IMG/VR virus record: IMGVR_UViG_3300045978_000181
Location: 1 to 23,037 of that record
Length of the DNA: 23,037 nucleotides
DNA from: a virus
Direction: 5' to 3' (one strand)
Made by a program: the position numbers and the translations under genes. Under the pieces are notes generated by a model. It saw only the letters and a list, made by a program, of their open reading frames with translations. It made no database searches and was not told the origin of the DNA. Positions 1,198-11,244 of this stretch are shown piece after piece; position 1 is the first letter of the stretch; the number at the start of each line of letters is the position of its first letter.

Positions 1198-4100
1198 TTA
1201 TTTAATCCCCTTAATGGCCGTGCGAATCTTCCCACCCCGCCGCAAGTCGTCAGCGACAGCCTGAATGATCGCTTCTTCCGTTGCGGCGGGTGTGTTACCC
1301 CCACTAGCAACCCCTATCGTCAGAGGGACAGTCACCGAGATAGGGCCGGTCGATTGTTGCCCGGCAGGGGTAATTTTGACGTATTCACCGGGATGGGCAA
1401 GGAACAATTGCTTGCCGGTCGTGATGCCCTCATAGCCATATTTGGCTGAGGTGATACTGTCAAAGAATCCAGTGAGACTCTCTTCCAGGCGAAAGATTCC
1501 GCCATCAATACTGCCAAGAATCCTCACCTGCTCAGCAGAAAGATCAAGCTGTTCTTGCACCCGGCGTTGTTGCTCGGCAAGAATCGCATCCTCAATCTTG
1601 CCCAGGTTGATAATCTCCTGCACCGCCTCCAAGCGTAACTGATCGATACGGGCGGAAGTCTCTGCTTCCGCCGCATCAATCGCGGCCTGCTCTTGCAGAG
1701 AAAGGGCCTCCGCTTGATCTTTAAAGGCTTGCTGTTGCGCCTCGGCATCTGCCCGTACTTGCTCCGCCCGCAAATCAATTGAGCGCAAGGAGGCTTCCAT
1801 CTGCGCGCTCGTGCTGGCGATCTCTTGCTGGATGAGTTCAACCCGGTCGCCTTGCGCGGTGGCTTCATCGCGGTTTTGTTCCAGTTCGGCCATGACGTCA
1901 CGGAACAACGAACCAAATTGCTGTGGGTCAAGGAGCTTCTGCCCGAGGGAGAGTTGATCTTGCAGCACTTGCGATAGCTCTTGGATCAGTTCCGGTCGTC
2001 GCTCTTGCGGTGCCGTGGCCAGAGCAGCCCGCAGTTCAGCCGCCCGTCGTTGCGTGAAAGAGAATTTTTCAGGATCAGAAAATGGTGAGGTGCTCAGGAC
2101 AATCTGATCAATCGTGCTTTGCAGTTGTTTTGCTGCCTGACGAAAGTCCTGCGCGACTTGTAACTCATCACGTAAACCGTCAAGGCGTTCTTGAAACAAG
2201 TCTTGGGTGGCCTCTTTTTCGTCCGCGAGTTGCTTAAGACGTGCCTCGGCAGCATCTTGCGCAGCCTCAGCTTCCTTTTTGAGACTCTCGCGCCGTTCAT
2301 CATAATCTTTCTTAATGTCGCGGATTCTTTTTTCCAGGGCGTCTTGTTCCTCTTGTTCCATCGCCTGGAATAGTTCCACGGTCGCGCGGCGCATCTCACG
2401 AATGGCATCGAGGGCTTGATCTAATTCGGCGTCCGTGAAGTCCGTGCGCGTGGAAGCGCCGAGGGCTTGCAATCGTCCGCCTTGCGCGCCAATCCGCGCT
2501 CGTGCGCCTTCCGCGCCAGAAATCGCCCCGATCGATTCGAGATCACTCAGGACATTGATGCGCAGATCAAAACGTTCCTGGGTGATGGAGCGCAGCGTCT
2601 CCCATAGTTCTTCGAGTTTCTTTTGAATATCCTCAAGGTCGTCTTTGGTCTCATCCTTCCCCGGCCCGCCAAACGCATCCCATAATTTCTCAACTTCCTC
2701 ACGCGCCACGCCCGCACGTTGGACAATCTTTTCCAATTCGTCCGCGCCTAAGCCATCGCTCAGGTCAATGCCTTCAAACAGTTGCTCTTCAATAAAGGTA
2801 GTGAGAAACTGATTGACAGCCAACTGTTCCAATCCGGCCATGATTTGCTCACCGACGAGTTTGCCGATCTCAATGCCGGGTTCATTATTTTGTACGGCAT
2901 CAATGAAGGCTTCCGTGATGACATCAAAGGTCGCACTTGCCTTGACCACTGACTCCTGAAACTTCTCAATATCGAAAATGCCCTCTTCGCTAAAAGATTG
3001 CAGCGCAATCTTGGCTACATTGACCGCGGCGGGAATATCCTGCGAGAAGATTTCCACCGCGCCCATGATCGTATCTTTGTAGAACTCCACACCGATCACT
3101 TCGTCAGCAAATAAGTCGTTGAGTTTCTCCGTGAGGGATTCAAAGGTAATGCCTGCTTTCTGGATAATTTCCTGCATCGCATCGTCAATTACTTCGGGGT
3201 CCAGACCGAGGTTATCGAGCAACATATTGCCGAACGTGGTCCCGGCTTGCTCTACGGATTTGCCAATCTTCTGCGCTTGATCGCCGGTAATAAAAGTGCC
3301 GAGCGCTTGCAGTTGCTTACTCAGTTCTGGCCCGGCTTTGTCGGTCAGGATTTGTTTACTTGCCGCAAGAAAATCGCCGCCAAACATTTTGTTTGCGAGT
3401 TTTTTGCTCTCTTCAAAAAAGTATTCATTCGTGTCGAGTTCTGAGGCAAAACTGACTTCGATGTCTTTGAGGAATGATTTGACTTCCTTGCGGATCTGAG
3501 TGCCCTTACTCGGCGTGCTTTGAAAAAGAGACCCAATAAAGGAACCAAACAATGAACCCGCCGCGGCTCCTAATGCTGAGCCAATCGCCATTCCCGCAGG
3601 GCCAAAGGGAGCGCCAAGAATTGCGCCGCCGATGCCCCCTGCCACGCCTCCGATGGTGCCGCCTAAATTTGCCGATCCCCCTGAAAGGCCAAATGCCCCC
3701 GCCAGCCCCTTCCCCATCGACATGCCTGCGGCTCCTGCCGCGGCTGCACCAAAGATCGACCCGAAGGACATTCCAGAGGACGCCGCAATCATCGGCGCAT
3801 TACCCGCCTCGAACACACCGGGCGCCGCTTGCTCCCATGTCACGCCGGCGGCATCGGCGGCACTACTGCCAAACATGGAGCCGAAATCGAGACCAACCGA
3901 TTGCCCTAACGAGCTGACACTACTCGAAAGCGAATCAATAAACGTAGAGCCAAGATTGAACCCCTGCTGCCCAAAGATACCCGCCGCATCACCCCCTAAG
4001 AGTTGGTTAAAATTGCCGAGGATCTCTTTCTCATTCTGCCCTTTGCCAAAGAGCACGCCTTCTACTAAGCGCACGCCCATCGTTTGACCAAGATCCTTAA

Positions 4101-6198
4101 ACAGGTTCCCGATGGATTGTGTGCCAGAGAGAATCCCTTGCGTGAAGGTTTTCAAGTCCTCGGTGGAGAGGGCGGCATCATCCAGAGATTCTTTGTAGCG
4201 GTCCACCGATTCTGCCGCTTCAAGATTGGCCAGGCGGGCTTTCCGTAGCTGCTCAATCCAGGCCGCTTCCGCCTCGGTGAGTGTGTCCTCAGAGGCGGCA
4301 GTCAATTCAGTAATGTACTGCCGCTCAATGCGGGCGCGGGCAATCTCGCCTTCGATGCGCGCCACTTCTTCCTTGGGGGCAAGGCTCGCGTTAATGAGTC
4401 GCCCTTCTTCCTGGATCGCCTGTAACTCTTGATCGAGTTGCGCAAGACTCTTGGCGTTGGCTTCTTCTTCTTTCTGATCCTCTTGTCGCTTCTTTTCGTT
4501 TAATTGATTGATAAGCGCATTCGCTTTCTGTACGTCTGCGAGCCGCTCTTTCTCAGCCTGCGCCGCTTTCCGATCCGCTTCAGCTTTGGCGTGCGTCGCT
4601 TTCGTTGCTGCGTCCTTTTTCTGCTTCTCTTGTTCGAGCGCTAACACCAATCGATAGGTCTCATCAGCGAGGGCTTTATCACCTGTTGCTGCCAGTGTTG
4701 CCGCCCGATGATATTCCGCGAGTTTCTCACCAGAGAGATTGAGCGTGTCGCCTTGCTCTTTCAGTCGCTCATTATGTTTGCGGATCTCTTCTGCGGCCTT
4801 TATCTGCGCAGGTGTGTATTGTGATTTGACCACTTCTGCGGTGGTACTGAGGGCGGCATCGGCTTTCTTGGTCGCCGCTTCCAGTTCCGCAATCTGCGCA
4901 ATCAGGGTATCAATGTTTTGCTGCAGCTCTGGCCCCCGTAGTACGCCGGTAAAGAACCCGCCGATGCCGCCGCCTTGAATCTTCGCCTGATCGGCTTGCA
5001 GCTCGGCCAGTTGTTGTTTAAGCCGGGCGAGTTTCTCGGCTTGGGTGTCCAGGTTCAAGGCCTGTGAGATCCGACTCGTGAGTGCAAGGATATTCTCGGC
5101 AATCGTTTGCGTGATGCCGAATTTCTGGTTCATCGCATCAATTGCCTGACCAATCGTCACGGCGGCCGCGGCTGAGGCCCGCCCCACTGTCTGTGGGATC
5201 TCGGCAAACTTCTTCCCCACCTCATCACTGCGACGTAGGATTGCGTCTAAAACCTCATTGACTTCGAGTTTTCCCGCGCGCGCGAGATTCAACGTCTCCT
5301 TGGTGGATTTCCCGAGGCCCTCGGCAATCAATTCGACAATCGCCGGGGCGCGGGTCAGAATCACGTTGAGTTCGTCTGCTTGGAATTTGCCTTGCGCAAA
5401 CACCTGCCCGAGTTGCAACAAGGCCCCGGCCATATTGTCTGCGCTAATCTTGCTGACCGCCCCCACCTTTTGCAGGGTATCGGCAATCTGCAACAGATCC
5501 GCATTGCTCTTGCCCAAACCTTGCGCGGCAAACGAGAGCTGCGTGAAAAATTCGACGTTGGCCTGCAACGGAATGCCTAAGGCTTTGGCCGAGCTTTGGA
5601 GCCGCTCAAAGATCGTGGCCCCTTGTCCGGCAGCCGTTGAGAGGTTCTCAATGCGAGCGCGTAAACTCTGCACGTCATCGGCAATCTCGATAAATTTCGT
5701 CACTCCTTGAAAACTGACAAAGGACGCCGCCGCAGCTGCGAGATTCGTCTTGAGTGAGGAAAAACTGCTGCCACTCGCCCGCGCTTCCGTGTTCAGATTG
5801 CGCATCGCCGCCGCGTTCTTCTCGAATTCCGCCCGCGTGGCCGCCAATTGTTGCGCAAGTTGACGGCTTCCCGTACGGGCGAAAATATCCGCCTCCGCCA
5901 TCTGTCGCGTTGCCTGGGCGTGCGAAATGGTACCAGTGATCACTTGCCGTTGAATGGTAATTTTCTGCTGTATGGCGGAGATTTCTTGCAGGGAGGCCAC
6001 ACGGGCTTGGGCTTGCGCTTCGCGTTGGCGATTGAGGGAAGCGCGCACTTCTTCCATTGAGCGCACCGAGCGAGCGGCCGCATCAGCCATGCTCTGAAAG
6101 GCTTGATTGACTTGTTGACTGCCCTGCTTCGCACCGGTTGCGTCGATCGATATTTTTATGGAGGCTATGGCAATATCCTTAAGTTGAATTATACACAA
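1198..6198 (-). CDS. Tape measure protein
   Basis: The longest open frame is 1,666 codons from a TTG at 6198. Tape measure proteins set tail length, plug the tube and are ejected ahead of DNA. Residues about 165-390 are the conserved tape-measure domain (helical, with FAQGKFQADELNVILTRAPA). Coiled coils of Lys/Glu/Ala/Gln follow, then a glycine/alanine-rich membrane-inserting stretch at about 795-885 (GGTIGGVAGGIGGAILGAP), then more coiled coil. The start is uncertain. The TTG has no Shine-Dalgarno sequence, whereas AAGGA at 6180-6176 sits seven bases before an in-frame ATA (6168) that would give (M)ASIKISIDATGA, the form this family usually starts with. No ATG, GTG or TTG lies between the TTG and residue 37. 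The 5' end abuts the plus-strand RHH/endonuclease cassette and contains its putative operator. Confidence 0.95.
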   Translation of the reverse strand: MCIIQLKDIAIASIKISIDATGAKQGSQQVNQAFQSMADAAARSVRSMEEVRASLNRQREAQAQARVASLQEISAIQQKITIQRQVITGTISHAQATRQMAEADIFARTGSRQLAQQLAATRAEFEKNAAAMRNLNTEARASGSSFSSLKTNLAAAAASFVSFQGVTKFIEIADDVQSLRARIENLSTAAGQGATIFERLQSSAKALGIPLQANVEFFTQLSFAAQGLGKSNADLLQIADTLQKVGAVSKISADNMAGALLQLGQVFAQGKFQADELNVILTRAPAIVELIAEGLGKSTKETLNLARAGKLEVNEVLDAILRRSDEVGKKFAEIPQTVGRASAAAAVTIGQAIDAMNQKFGITQTIAENILALTSRISQALNLDTQAEKLARLKQQLAELQADQAKIQGGGIGGFFTGVLRGPELQQNIDTLIAQIAELEAATKKADAALSTTAEVVKSQYTPAQIKAAEEIRKHNERLKEQGDTLNLSGEKLAEYHRAATLAATGDKALADETYRLVLALEQEKQKKDAATKATHAKAEADRKAAQAEKERLADVQKANALINQLNEKKRQEDQKEEEANAKSLAQLDQELQAIQEEGRLINASLAPKEEVARIEGEIARARIERQYITELTAASEDTLTEAEAAWIEQLRKARLANLEAAESVDRYKESLDDAALSTEDLKTFTQGILSGTQSIGNLFKDLGQTMGVRLVEGVLFGKGQNEKEILGNFNQLLGGDAAGIFGQQGFNLGSTFIDSLSSSVSSLGQSVGLDFGSMFGSSAADAAGVTWEQAAPGVFEAGNAPMIAASSGMSFGSIFGAAAAGAAGMSMGKGLAGAFGLSGGSANLGGTIGGVAGGIGGAILGAPFGPAGMAIGSALGAAAGSLFGSFIGSLFQSTPSKGTQIRKEVKSFLKDIEVSFASELDTNEYFFEESKKLANKMFGGDFLAASKQILTDKAGPELSKQLQALGTFITGDQAQKIGKSVEQAGTTFGNMLLDNLGLDPEVIDDAMQEIIQKAGITFESLTEKLNDLFADEVIGVEFYKDTIMGAVEIFSQDIPAAVNVAKIALQSFSEEGIFDIEKFQESVVKASATFDVITEAFIDAVQNNEPGIEIGKLVGEQIMAGLEQLAVNQFLTTFIEEQLFEGIDLSDGLGADELEKIVQRAGVAREEVEKLWDAFGGPGKDETKDDLEDIQKKLEELWETLRSITQERFDLRINVLSDLESIGAISGAEGARARIGAQGGRLQALGASTRTDFTDAELDQALDAIREMRRATVELFQAMEQEEQDALEKRIRDIKKDYDERRESLKKEAEAAQDAAEARLKQLADEKEATQDLFQERLDGLRDELQVAQDFRQAAKQLQSTIDQIVLSTSPFSDPEKFSFTQRRAAELRAALATAPQERRPELIQELSQVLQDQLSLGQKLLDPQQFGSLFRDVMAELEQNRDEATAQGDRVELIQQEIASTSAQMEASLRSIDLRAEQVRADAEAQQQAFKDQAEALSLQEQAAIDAAEAETSARIDQLRLEAVQEIINLGKIEDAILAEQQRRVQEQLDLSAEQVRILGSIDGGIFRLEESLTGFFDSITSAKYGYEGITTGKQLFLAHPGEYVKITPAGQQSTGPISVTVPLTIGVASGGNTPAATEEAIIQAVADDLRRGGKIRTAIKGIK

Positions 6199-6212
6199 AC
6201 TATGTGTATGAT
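6184..6212 (+). promoter_or_regulatory. Sigma70-like promoter predicting a leaderless transcript
   Basis: TTGAAT (6184-6189) and TATGAT (6207-6212) are 17 bases apart, close to the sigma70 consensus. Transcription would start about seven bases further on, at or within a base of A6219, the first base of the RHH start codon. There is no Shine-Dalgarno sequence before that ATG, so the mRNA is probably leaderless. The promoter points away from the tape-measure gene and lies over its 5' end. Confidence 0.6.
6191..6209. promoter_or_regulatory. Perfect 7-bp inverted repeat, candidate operator
   Basis: ATACACA (6191-6197) and TGTGTAT (6203-6209) are exact reverse complements around the 5-base centre AACTA. 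The repeat fills the -35/-10 spacer and overlaps the first three bases of the -10 hexamer, a standard position for a repressor that blocks RNA polymerase. The ribbon-helix-helix protein encoded 10 bases downstream is the obvious candidate ligand, since such proteins bind short inverted or tandem repeats and commonly repress themselves. Binding is an inference. Confidence 0.5.
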
Positions 6213-6218
6213 AAGTCT

Positions 6219-6371
6219 ATGAGAACTCCTCTCAAGCGCATTCAAATTTGCATTGCCGTTCAACAACAAACCAACTTACGAGACTTACAAAAAGCAACAG
6301 GCATGAGCGTGTCTGAGCATATTCGTCGCGCCATTGACCAATATCTTGCCAAACAAAGGAAGAACAAATAG
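6219..6371 (+). CDS. Ribbon-helix-helix (Arc/CopG-like) DNA-binding protein, 50 aa
   Basis: This small gene reads ATG at 6219 to TAG at 6371. The translation has the ribbon-helix-helix layout: a basic N-terminal beta strand (KRIQICIAV, residues 6-14), helix 1 (NLRDLQKATG, 19-28), a turn, and helix 2 (SVSEHIRRAIDQYLAKQ, 30-46). Such proteins act as dimers that insert the strand pair into the DNA major groove. The stop codon shares its last base with the GTG of the endonuclease VII-like gene (TAGTG), so the two are translationally coupled. A candidate operator covers its promoter, so autorepression that also limits the nuclease is the simplest model. It could instead be a regulator of phage genes elsewhere or an antitoxin-like partner. 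Confidence 0.8.
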   Translation: MRTPLKRIQICIAVQQQTNLRDLQKATGMSVSEHIRRAIDQYLAKQRKNK

Positions 6372-7381
6372 TGATAACTCCACCACTGGAAAAAACCTGC
6401 CGTATGTGCGGGACAACAAAACCGACGGAAGCCTTTGTTCCCAACGGCAGAGCAAAGGATGGATACTCTTCATATTGTCGAGCTTGTCGAATTCCGCTTC
6501 TCGTTGCCAGTTTTGACAGGCTCCGAGCAGAGAAAAAGGAAGTTCGTCGCCAGAATTTGTTGACTGGCACTAAGCAATGCTTCAAATGCAAGATCGTAAA
6601 AAAGCTAGAAGCATTTTCTCGTAGCAATAAAACCGAAGATGGACGGCGGGCACGCTGCAAAGAGTGCACTAGTAGTGATCCACGTAAAAAAGAATTTGAT
6701 CGTCTGGTATGGGCAAGAAAAATAGAAGCAAGAAAAGCGGCCTTTGTCTTCCAAGCAGAGAAACCGTGCATTCGCTGCCACATACAAAAATGCCTCAAGG
6801 AATTTCCTAAGGACCCGAGAACATTTGACGGATATAAGTCCGTATGTCTCATGTGCTATTGGTCCTCTCGCGGACGTGAATCCCTTGGAGAGAAAGGCAG
6901 AGCAGCGGCTAAACAGAAAGCTGCTGTCATACTCACTGCTGGAGAAAAATCTTGTGTTCGTTGTAACCAAATCAAGCCTTTGACTGCCTTTTGGCAAAAG
7001 TCGGCAAACTGGAATAAAACCCACCCTTTCTGCAAAGACTGTGCTGATAGGCCTGCTATTCGGGAAAGTTTTAAGAAACAGCGAATGCAAAATCCATCGA
7101 AATACGCAGACATCCATCTAAGGAGAAAATACGGTATCTCTCTTGAAGAGTACGAGGCTCTGCTTGCTTCACAAGACGGCGTGTGTGCAATCTGCAAAAA
7201 GGAAAACACACAACGTGACTGGAGATTAGATCGCCCGCGCCGAATGCATGTTGACCATTGCCACCAAAGCGGGAAGGTTCGCGGTCTGTTATGTGTACGA
7301 TGTAACAATGGCATAGGATTTTTCCGTGACCATCCTGCGTTGCTTACTGCCGCCATTGCCTATCTTTCTCGCTCGGTATAG
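6371..7381 (+). CDS. Endonuclease VII-like HNH (His-Me finger) homing endonuclease with four zinc ribbons
   Basis: The 336-residue protein starts at GTG 6371, coupled to the RHH gene. It contains four tandem CxxC...CxxC ribbons, with pairs at C10/C13-C36/C39, C70/C73-C96/C99, C133/C136-C159/C162 and C195/C198-C221/C224. Each keeps a 'K-x-x-x-F ... dG' core. They are followed by a recombination-endonuclease-VII-type domain: YGISLEEYEALLASQDGVC (about 254-272), C272/C275, the catalytic VDHCH (294-298), GKVRGLLCVRCN with C308/C311, and a final NGIG. All expected metal and catalytic residues are present, so it is probably active. It lies opposite to the tail operon between the tail chaperone and tape-measure genes and overlaps the chaperone 3' end by 38 bases. 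It looks more A/T-rich than its neighbours. A free-standing homing endonuclease is the best reading; a Holliday-junction resolvase is less likely in this position. Confidence 0.85.
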   Translation: MITPPLEKTCRMCGTTKPTEAFVPNGRAKDGYSSYCRACRIPLLVASFDRLRAEKKEVRRQNLLTGTKQCFKCKIVKKLEAFSRSNKTEDGRRARCKECTSSDPRKKEFDRLVWARKIEARKAAFVFQAEKPCIRCHIQKCLKEFPKDPRTFDGYKSVCLMCYWSSRGRESLGEKGRAAAKQKAAVILTAGEKSCVRCNQIKPLTAFWQKSANWNKTHPFCKDCADRPAIRESFKKQRMQNPSKYADIHLRRKYGISLEEYEALLASQDGVCAICKKENTQRDWRLDRPRRMHVDHCHQSGKVRGLLCVRCNNGIGFFRDHPALLTAAIAYLSRSV

Positions 7382-7781
7382 GGGCTTTCTTCTCGTGCTC
7401 TTTACTCCGATGATAGTCGATATAGGCGATGTCGAGGGCTTCCAGTCTGACAAACAGCCATTCGCGTTGCTCGGGGTCTACAAGCCCACTCAACCGGCAA
7501 TGCGCCTCGAACTCGGTCAAGGGAATCGCGCCAATCCCGAACCCGACCGGGCGCCGCCGCGAGAGCCGCCAGAAACTTTCCCACACCGAAGTCAGATGCG
7601 GCAGTAAGAACGGACGATTGAAATAGACCGCTAAGTCGGGATCTTGTTCCGCTGAGGTCCCGGACGGATCGAGGGCGAGGTGCTCGCGCACCCTTAATGC
7701 AAAGACGTCTCCCCATCCTGGCGACCCGTCTGAGCCTCCCCCGCTCCATTCAAGCTCGAAGCGGAGGAGTTCAACAAATTT
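7344..7781 (-). CDS. Tail assembly chaperone, downstream (T-like) frame reached by -1 frameshift
   Basis: This frame opens exactly at the slippery site: the codon before it in this frame is TAA (7784-7782). It runs 145 sense codons to TAA 7346-7344 without an ATG. The only internal start, GTG 7691, has AAGG too close to serve as a normal ribosome site. After the shift the product reads VELLRFELEWSGGG, then GWGDVFALRVREHLALDPSG, a sensible continuation of a tail chaperone. Fused to the upstream frame it gives a 289-residue protein (7344-8212), like lambda gpGT. Such fusions bind tape measure and tube protein during tail assembly and are absent from the virion. The last 38 bases overlap the 3' end of the plus-strand endonuclease gene. 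Confidence 0.75.
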   Translation of the reverse strand, partial: KFVELLRFELEWSGGGSDGSPGWGDVFALRVREHLALDPSGTSAEQDPDLAVYFNRPFLLPHLTSVWESFWRLSRRRPVGFGIGAIPLTEFEAHCRLSGLVDPEQREWLFVRLEALDIAYIDYHRSKEHEKKAPIPSEKDRQWRQ

Positions 7782-10263: not shown

Positions 10264-11244
10264 GTGCCAGCTTTTATTGATCTTTCTAGACAAACCTTTG
10301 GACGGTTGACTGCGCATATGTACGTCGGTAAACGTCAGTGGCAATGTCACTGCGAGTGCGGAAATACGCTGATTGTCCGGGCTGACCACTTGAAAGACGG
10401 CGCAACTTTGTCTTGCGGATGTCTTCGTACCGCAGAAGACTTGACCGGGCGTAGATTTGGTGCCTGGTTGGTGATCTCGCGAGAAACAAATAATTTGTTT
10501 GGAACTCCGATGTATCAATGCCGTTGCGATTGCGGATCCCTGAAGATCCATCAAACCAGCAACTTGCTTTCTGGTTCTACGAAATCGTGTGGCTGTCTTT
10601 CTTACGGGACCGATTATGTTGGTCAACACTACGGACGATTGACCGTTTTGATGAAACTCAAAACTTCCCACGGGCAACCAGTAATCCTTGTCTGTTCGTG
10701 TACTTGTGGGAATCACACCCGCGTACTTGCGACCAACGTTGTAAACGGACGAACACAATCTTGCGGTTGCTTGAACAAGGAGAAGGCGCGCGGTCAACGT
10801 TTTACTCAAACACATGGCTTGTCCCGTAGCCGCGTCTACAGCATTTGGGCAGGTATGCGACAACGGTGCTATAATCCCAATGCTAGTAACTACAGCTTGT
10901 ACGGCGGCAGCGGAGTGATCGTTTGTCGGGCGTGGAAATCTTCGTTCGAGAGGTTCTACAAAGACGTAGGCGATCCGCCCAGTCCGAAACATTCCCTGGA
11001 TCGTTTTCCAGACCCCACAGGGCCATATGCTCCGCACAATGTTCGATGGGCTACAGCCAAACAACAAGCGAATAATCGGCGTATTACCCAATATCTCACA
11101 TTTGCTAATCAAAGATTGACTATTCCAGAATGGGCAGATTTGACGCAGATACCCGTTCAGCGTCTTCGTAGCCGCTTGTCGTATGGCTGGCCTATCGAAC
11201 GTGCCTTGACGGAACCTGTAAAACATAAGAACCCGACTATTTAA
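10264..11244 (+). CDS. Zinc-finger HNH-type endonuclease (free-standing, probable homing endonuclease)
   Basis: The 326-residue protein starts at GTG 10264 behind a near-perfect AGGAGGTGA. Three repeats carry CxCxCG...SCGC zinc-binding modules (C28/C30/C32-C51/C53, C86/C88/C90-C109/C111, C144/C146/C148-C167/C169), each introduced by a 'G(R/A)..V' strand. A His-Me-finger-like domain follows: YGGSGVIVCRAWKSSFERFY, HSLDRFPDPTGPY, HNVRWATAKQQANNRR. The C-terminus (LTIPEWADLTQIPVQRLRSR) is the helix-turn-helix tail that usually accompanies this nuclease type. It is transcribed against the virion operon between tail terminator and zinc-ribbon genes and overlaps the terminator gene tail-to-tail by eight bases. 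The Asp replacing the common DRIDNDG spacing (DRFPDPTG) is a small deviation; the core residues look intact. Confidence 0.8.
   Translation: MPAFIDLSRQTFGRLTAHMYVGKRQWQCHCECGNTLIVRADHLKDGATLSCGCLRTAEDLTGRRFGAWLVISRETNNLFGTPMYQCRCDCGSLKIHQTSNLLSGSTKSCGCLSYGTDYVGQHYGRLTVLMKLKTSHGQPVILVCSCTCGNHTRVLATNVVNGRTQSCGCLNKEKARGQRFTQTHGLSRSRVYSIWAGMRQRCYNPNASNYSLYGGSGVIVCRAWKSSFERFYKDVGDPPSPKHSLDRFPDPTGPYAPHNVRWATAKQQANNRRITQYLTFANQRLTIPEWADLTQIPVQRLRSRLSYGWPIERALTEPVKHKNPTI

Follow-up and report, generated by a model that had tools for sequence, protein, structure and literature searches.

Positions 6184-7381 of the viral DNA analysed here (23,037 nt in total; the window) probably represent an inserted two-gene cassette, in which a CopG-like ribbon-helix-helix (RHH) protein is the candidate autorepressor that would keep a mobile nuclease low, the mRNA probably having its 5' end at the ATG of the RHH gene or close to it. 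The case for this cassette rests on comparative data, and its inverted repeat alone is weak evidence and suggestive only. Insertion, joint occurrence of both genes, change of the partner and a conserved promoter position can be read from the compared sequences; binding, repression, timing and homing are what we infer for this cassette. It is a more tentative, though quite plausible, idea that the RHH gene with its leaderless promoter is a portable general control kit that unrelated mobile nucleases (endonuclease VII, GIY-YIG, HNH and RNA-guided TnpB) as well as anti-defence genes have repeatedly acquired and that limits their expression after a first burst.

The cassette and its place in the tail operon

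The virion genes of the window are encoded on the minus strand and the cassette on the plus strand, an antisense orientation that was not mentioned in the earlier note. It is flanked by a tape measure gene (1198-6198, minus strand; Pfam TMP_3, E 1e-37), which reads away from it, and by a tail assembly chaperone gene (7344-7691, minus strand; Phage_TAC_18, E 1e-13), which overlaps the 3' end of the nuclease gene by 38 bp. Two distantly related phages, Nanhaivirus R5C and R26L, lack the cassette and have a gap of 7 bp between the chaperone gene and the tape measure gene. It is likewise absent from Pan1, another distant relative, where an unannotated chaperone frame reaches directly to the tape measure start. 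The GC content of the cassette is 42-47% vs about 55-59% in the neighbouring genes. As the flanking genes abut in the Nanhaivirus phages and the GC content is lower, the cassette is regarded as an insertion. The empty-site comparison relies on distant phages because no close relatives of the window phage were found with the tail chaperone and tape measure as baits. Being intergenic and missing from these distant relatives (R5C, R26L and Pan1), the nuclease gene is placed like that of a free-standing homing endonuclease. A second antisense nuclease gene of the HNH type is located at 10264-11244 (plus strand; phrog_374, E 2e-91) beside the tail tube gene and has no RHH gene; in R5C, the genes corresponding to its flanks are 18 bp apart.

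The first gene of the cassette (6219-6371, plus strand) encodes an RHH protein of the CopG/Arc type with 50 aa, which matched Pfam RHH_1 above the cutoff with an E-value of 5e-6. Its predicted model (pLDDT 93) has the RHH fold. The top Foldseek matches were ORF56, the RHH domain of PutA and CopG with probabilities of 0.84-0.99, but E-values of 0.14 or worse; ORF56 of pRN1 and CopG were the nearest solved folds, and ORF56 was also matched by sequence (E 1e-4). The nuclease (6371-7381, plus strand) consists of 336 aa. Four zinc-ribbon-like CxxC repeats, recognised by eye in the translation, precede the catalytic part, an endonuclease VII domain (about 7115-7369) that covers positions 3-81 of the 82 in the Pfam profile Endonuclease_7 (E 4.3e-23). 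A PHROGs match was to endonuclease VII as well (phrog_2633, E 4e-52).

Upstream of the RHH gene, direct reading and a consensus scan gave a -35 hexamer TTGAAT (6184-6189, plus strand), followed after a 17-nt spacer by the -10 hexamer TATGAT (6207-6212, plus strand), which ends 6 nt before the ATG. Since the ATG comes seven nt after the -10 box, its A at 6219 is the predicted transcript start. A perfect 7-bp inverted repeat, ATACACA-N5-TGTGTAT (6191-6209), is the candidate RHH operator; its left arm occupies 6191-6197, and its right arm (6203-6209, after a 5-nt spacer) overlaps the -10 box. At the junction of the two genes, the RHH stop TAG (6369-6371) and the nuclease start GTG (6371-6373) share one G (TAGTG), and a Shine-Dalgarno-like AAGGAAG (6356-6362, plus strand) presumably serves this GTG. 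Promoter, repeat, ATG and TAGTG had been named in the earlier note, and each was found exactly where it had been placed. The absence of a ribosome site before the RHH ATG was confirmed as well, as direct reading revealed no Shine-Dalgarno motif upstream. The local signals by themselves are only suggestive because the chance figures are modest: P is ~0.05 for a repeat of at least 7 bp with a spacer of at most 10 in 64 nt and ~0.011 for a promoter placed so as to start at ATG 6219, and the consensus scan found 2 promoter-like sites vs 1.2 expected in a 1.8-kb region.

Some further features of this region are ambiguous. The RHH gene might alternatively start at position 6204, where there is a GTG in frame. 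The tape measure gene may start at the listed TTG at 6198, inside the repeat, or, preceded by AAGGA, at a non-standard codon close to 6177. On the minus strand, TTGAGA-16-TATCAT (6235-6208, 10/12) faces the tape measure gene, uses the same -10 region and outscores the plus-strand promoter.

RHH relatives, their promoters and their nuclease partners

Loci were collected by the RHH protein alone and the next same-strand gene was taken as partner (n=41). A mobile nuclease gene was located directly downstream in 13 of them, compared to about 2 of 105 further genes taken from these loci as controls, one clearly and one weakly nuclease-like (Fisher P about 1e-6). These partners comprise six GIY-YIG, four TnpB and one HNH nuclease as well as those of the window and of L007, the latter matching endonuclease VII families. 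A further viral scan and genome searches added endonuclease VII-type partners in L281 and L304, a GIY-YIG partner in L284, NUMOD4-HNH partners after a gap of 37-53 nt in L271 and L293, and TnpB in L262, L294 and L331 by Pfam and in L273, L283 and L335 by eye. Loci derived from promoter patterns contributed GIY-YIG in L105 and AP2-HNH in L082. Including the later searches, the totals are four endonuclease VII, eight GIY-YIG and four HNH partners, plus TnpB. Partners of all four types were confirmed with Pfam; among the endonuclease VII types, this applies to the window and L304, and those of L007 and L281 were assigned by PHROGs. The proposed search for RHH genes directly upstream of endonuclease VII-type genes elsewhere was thus successful in three loci. 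No relatives were obtained from viral contigs with the window nuclease as bait, from named phages with the window RHH protein or from plasmids with the L009-type RHH protein; the L015-type RHH protein gave one weak match only in named phages.

The promoter position was compared in those 12 nuclease-linked RHH genes whose upstream region could be read, allowing at most one mismatch in the -10 box; L082, L105, L098 and L205 were left out of these statistics as they had been found via promoter patterns. A -10 box lies 5-9 nt before the ATG in 10 of the 12 vs 0.6 expected from shuffles. RHH genes led by a Shine-Dalgarno motif all belong outside the nuclease-linked class. This layout supports the prediction that nuclease-linked RHH transcripts start at the ATG or a few nt from it at most. 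It is neither RHH-specific nor diagnostic alone because TATAAT-6-ATG also precedes unrelated marine phage genes, which made up most of the results of a DNA-pattern search. Conservation of the window repeat as a palindrome was ruled out, as only its TGTGTAT arm recurs among the relatives: it overlaps the -10 box at equal distance from the ATG upstream of several related RHH genes.

The RHH relatives have 42-50 aa, and the RHH domain takes up the whole protein. RHH antitoxins are common, and the pair could be read as a toxin-antitoxin or restriction-like system in which the RHH protein neutralises or licenses the nuclease. Proteins of 42-50 aa leave no room for a toxin-binding tail, however, and no such region of the antitoxin type was found in them. 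Due to this lack of an extra domain, and with partners of unrelated folds and a cassette devoid of a methyltransferase, this explanation is highly improbable. To our knowledge, the C proteins of restriction systems do not belong to the RHH family. In PvuII, the regulator transcript is leaderless and the regulator gene overlaps the nuclease gene (PMC2997769), which resembles the layout of the RHH-nuclease pair and is a point in favour of a restriction-like pair; C proteins, though, activate as well as repress.

Movement of the unit

Four related tail operons (L002, L006, L015 and L105) carry RHH genes at three junctions, and at each of these some of the other operons have no insertion. In L006 and L015, the unit is inserted between genes for proteins of 92 and 245 aa, which overlap by 4 bp in L002. 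In L105, it lies between the 245-aa and tape measure genes, a junction that measures 2-5 bp or is overlapping in L002, L015 and L006. L002 itself contains the RHH gene alone, beside a 135-aa gene. The RHH coding DNA of L015 (GIY-YIG) and L007 (endonuclease VII-type) is 83% identical, while both flanks are at background level, and the two nucleases have different folds despite the similar RHH genes. The RHH protein of L007 also falls among the GIY-YIG-linked ones in a tree that is poorly resolved, its 43 columns with one starred branch being too short. Judged by the called ORFs, 14 of the 19 viral loci examined have the cassette in antisense orientation to the genes on both sides.

A 1.31-kb RHH-TnpB element (L341-L345) occurs in four copies in genome G707 and in a fifth copy in G453 with 94-98% identity. 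It comprises promoter, RHH gene and TnpB gene, lacks tnpA and has the ends TCATCAGTAGCTCC...GGGGAGGATGTCAA with the RHH gene inside; the sequence outside the copies is unrelated. The earlier view of the pair as a regulated mobile unit is therefore upheld in part: RHH genes precede endonuclease VII, GIY-YIG, HNH and TnpB genes and related phages have acquired or lost the unit at several junctions, but the exact repeat is not kept as a palindrome.

The RHH protein might instead be a DNA-targeting or accessory subunit of the nuclease, any repression being secondary. The same type of RHH protein accompanies nucleases that differ in fold, including the RNA-guided TnpB that needs no such subunit, and the promoter is kept together with the RHH gene, which argues against this role. 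It nevertheless has a small but real probability since one open reading frame of L021 (60-650) encodes an RHH-like domain, with an RHH_1 E-value of only 0.026, together with a nuclease domain of the HNH type. In addition, MobC of plasmid RA3, an RHH autorepressor of mobC-nic, also aids transfer (PMC4175270).

Proposed control of the nuclease and comparison with known systems

According to the favoured autorepressor model, the cassette, placed antisense to the tail operon, would combine a promoter of its own with genes for a minimal RHH protein and an endonuclease VII of the homing type. Its mRNA would begin at the RHH ATG or no more than a few nt away, and the nuclease would be translated via the overlap with the RHH stop. 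RHH dimers would bind across the -10 box and thus silence the promoter. When fresh DNA enters a cell without the RHH protein, a short burst of nuclease may be produced, which is then held low. One module of RHH gene and promoter has probably become linked to various mobile nucleases of unrelated types, with which it would travel.

CopG and ORF56 repress their own operons. Negative autoregulation with a burst followed by repression is favoured because the RHH model is nearest to these two. In CopG-RepB of pMV158 and in the ORF56 system of pRN1, a minimal RHH protein is likewise encoded by the first gene of the operon and the second gene product acts on DNA; there, however, the partner is a replication initiator, while here it is a mobile nuclease and repression is only predicted. 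CopG is named as repressor of repB in PMC4485353. The homing endonucleases of T4 (seg, mob and I-TevI) are intergenic and tightly controlled, as is proposed here. PMC2988022 reports that they are controlled through promoters of the phage, through RNA structure or, in the case of I-TevI and its own operator, through self-repression, and notes the antisense placement of segD. In the passages considered, the nuclease itself represses or its gene has no promoter of its own, and no dedicated regulator gene is described. Searches of an open-access library, in which most subscription papers are not included, gave no account of a dedicated regulator of the RHH type for homing nucleases or TnpB.

Homing nucleases should be low enough to spare their carrier, yet present once an empty target appears. 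For a range of nucleases with unrelated folds, RNA-guided TnpB among them, a single type of small regulator seems to provide the solution, suggesting a plug-in control module that is common to selfish nuclease genes. With the RHH cassette, the control of selfish nucleases becomes directly testable, and the module can serve as bait for downstream genes that encode new mobile nucleases or anti-defence proteins.

RHH relatives were also found before other genes or alone, as expected if the RHH protein were an ordinary phage regulator and nucleases had been inserted behind it by chance. This is improbable given that RHH and nuclease genes are missing together at each junction in related phages save for the lone RHH gene in L002, that the multi-copy TnpB element contains both the RHH gene and the promoter and that RHH and nuclease genes mostly overlap by 4 nt. 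Tad2-like (anti-Thoeris) genes directly follow the RHH gene in seven loci (L017, L018, L020, L022, L024, L025 and L066) and a Lar gene in L279; the RHH proteins are possible regulators of these anti-defence genes. Such an arrangement is similar to anti-CRISPR operons, in which a small repressor gene, aca, controls a phage accessory gene. As far as described in PMC9410906, Aca proteins are of the helix-turn-helix type and encoded after acr, whereas the RHH gene precedes its partner. ParA-type ATPase genes follow in L334 and L337 and a truncated serine recombinase with a Resolvase domain in L270. In L205 (minus strand), the RHH gene is followed by a gene for a 467-aa NUMOD3-like protein and then by an ORF opening with an apparent intein C-terminus. 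The genes downstream in the remaining loci were not recognised. Lone RHH genes with the shared promoter type are located antisense in structural operons in L011 and L002.
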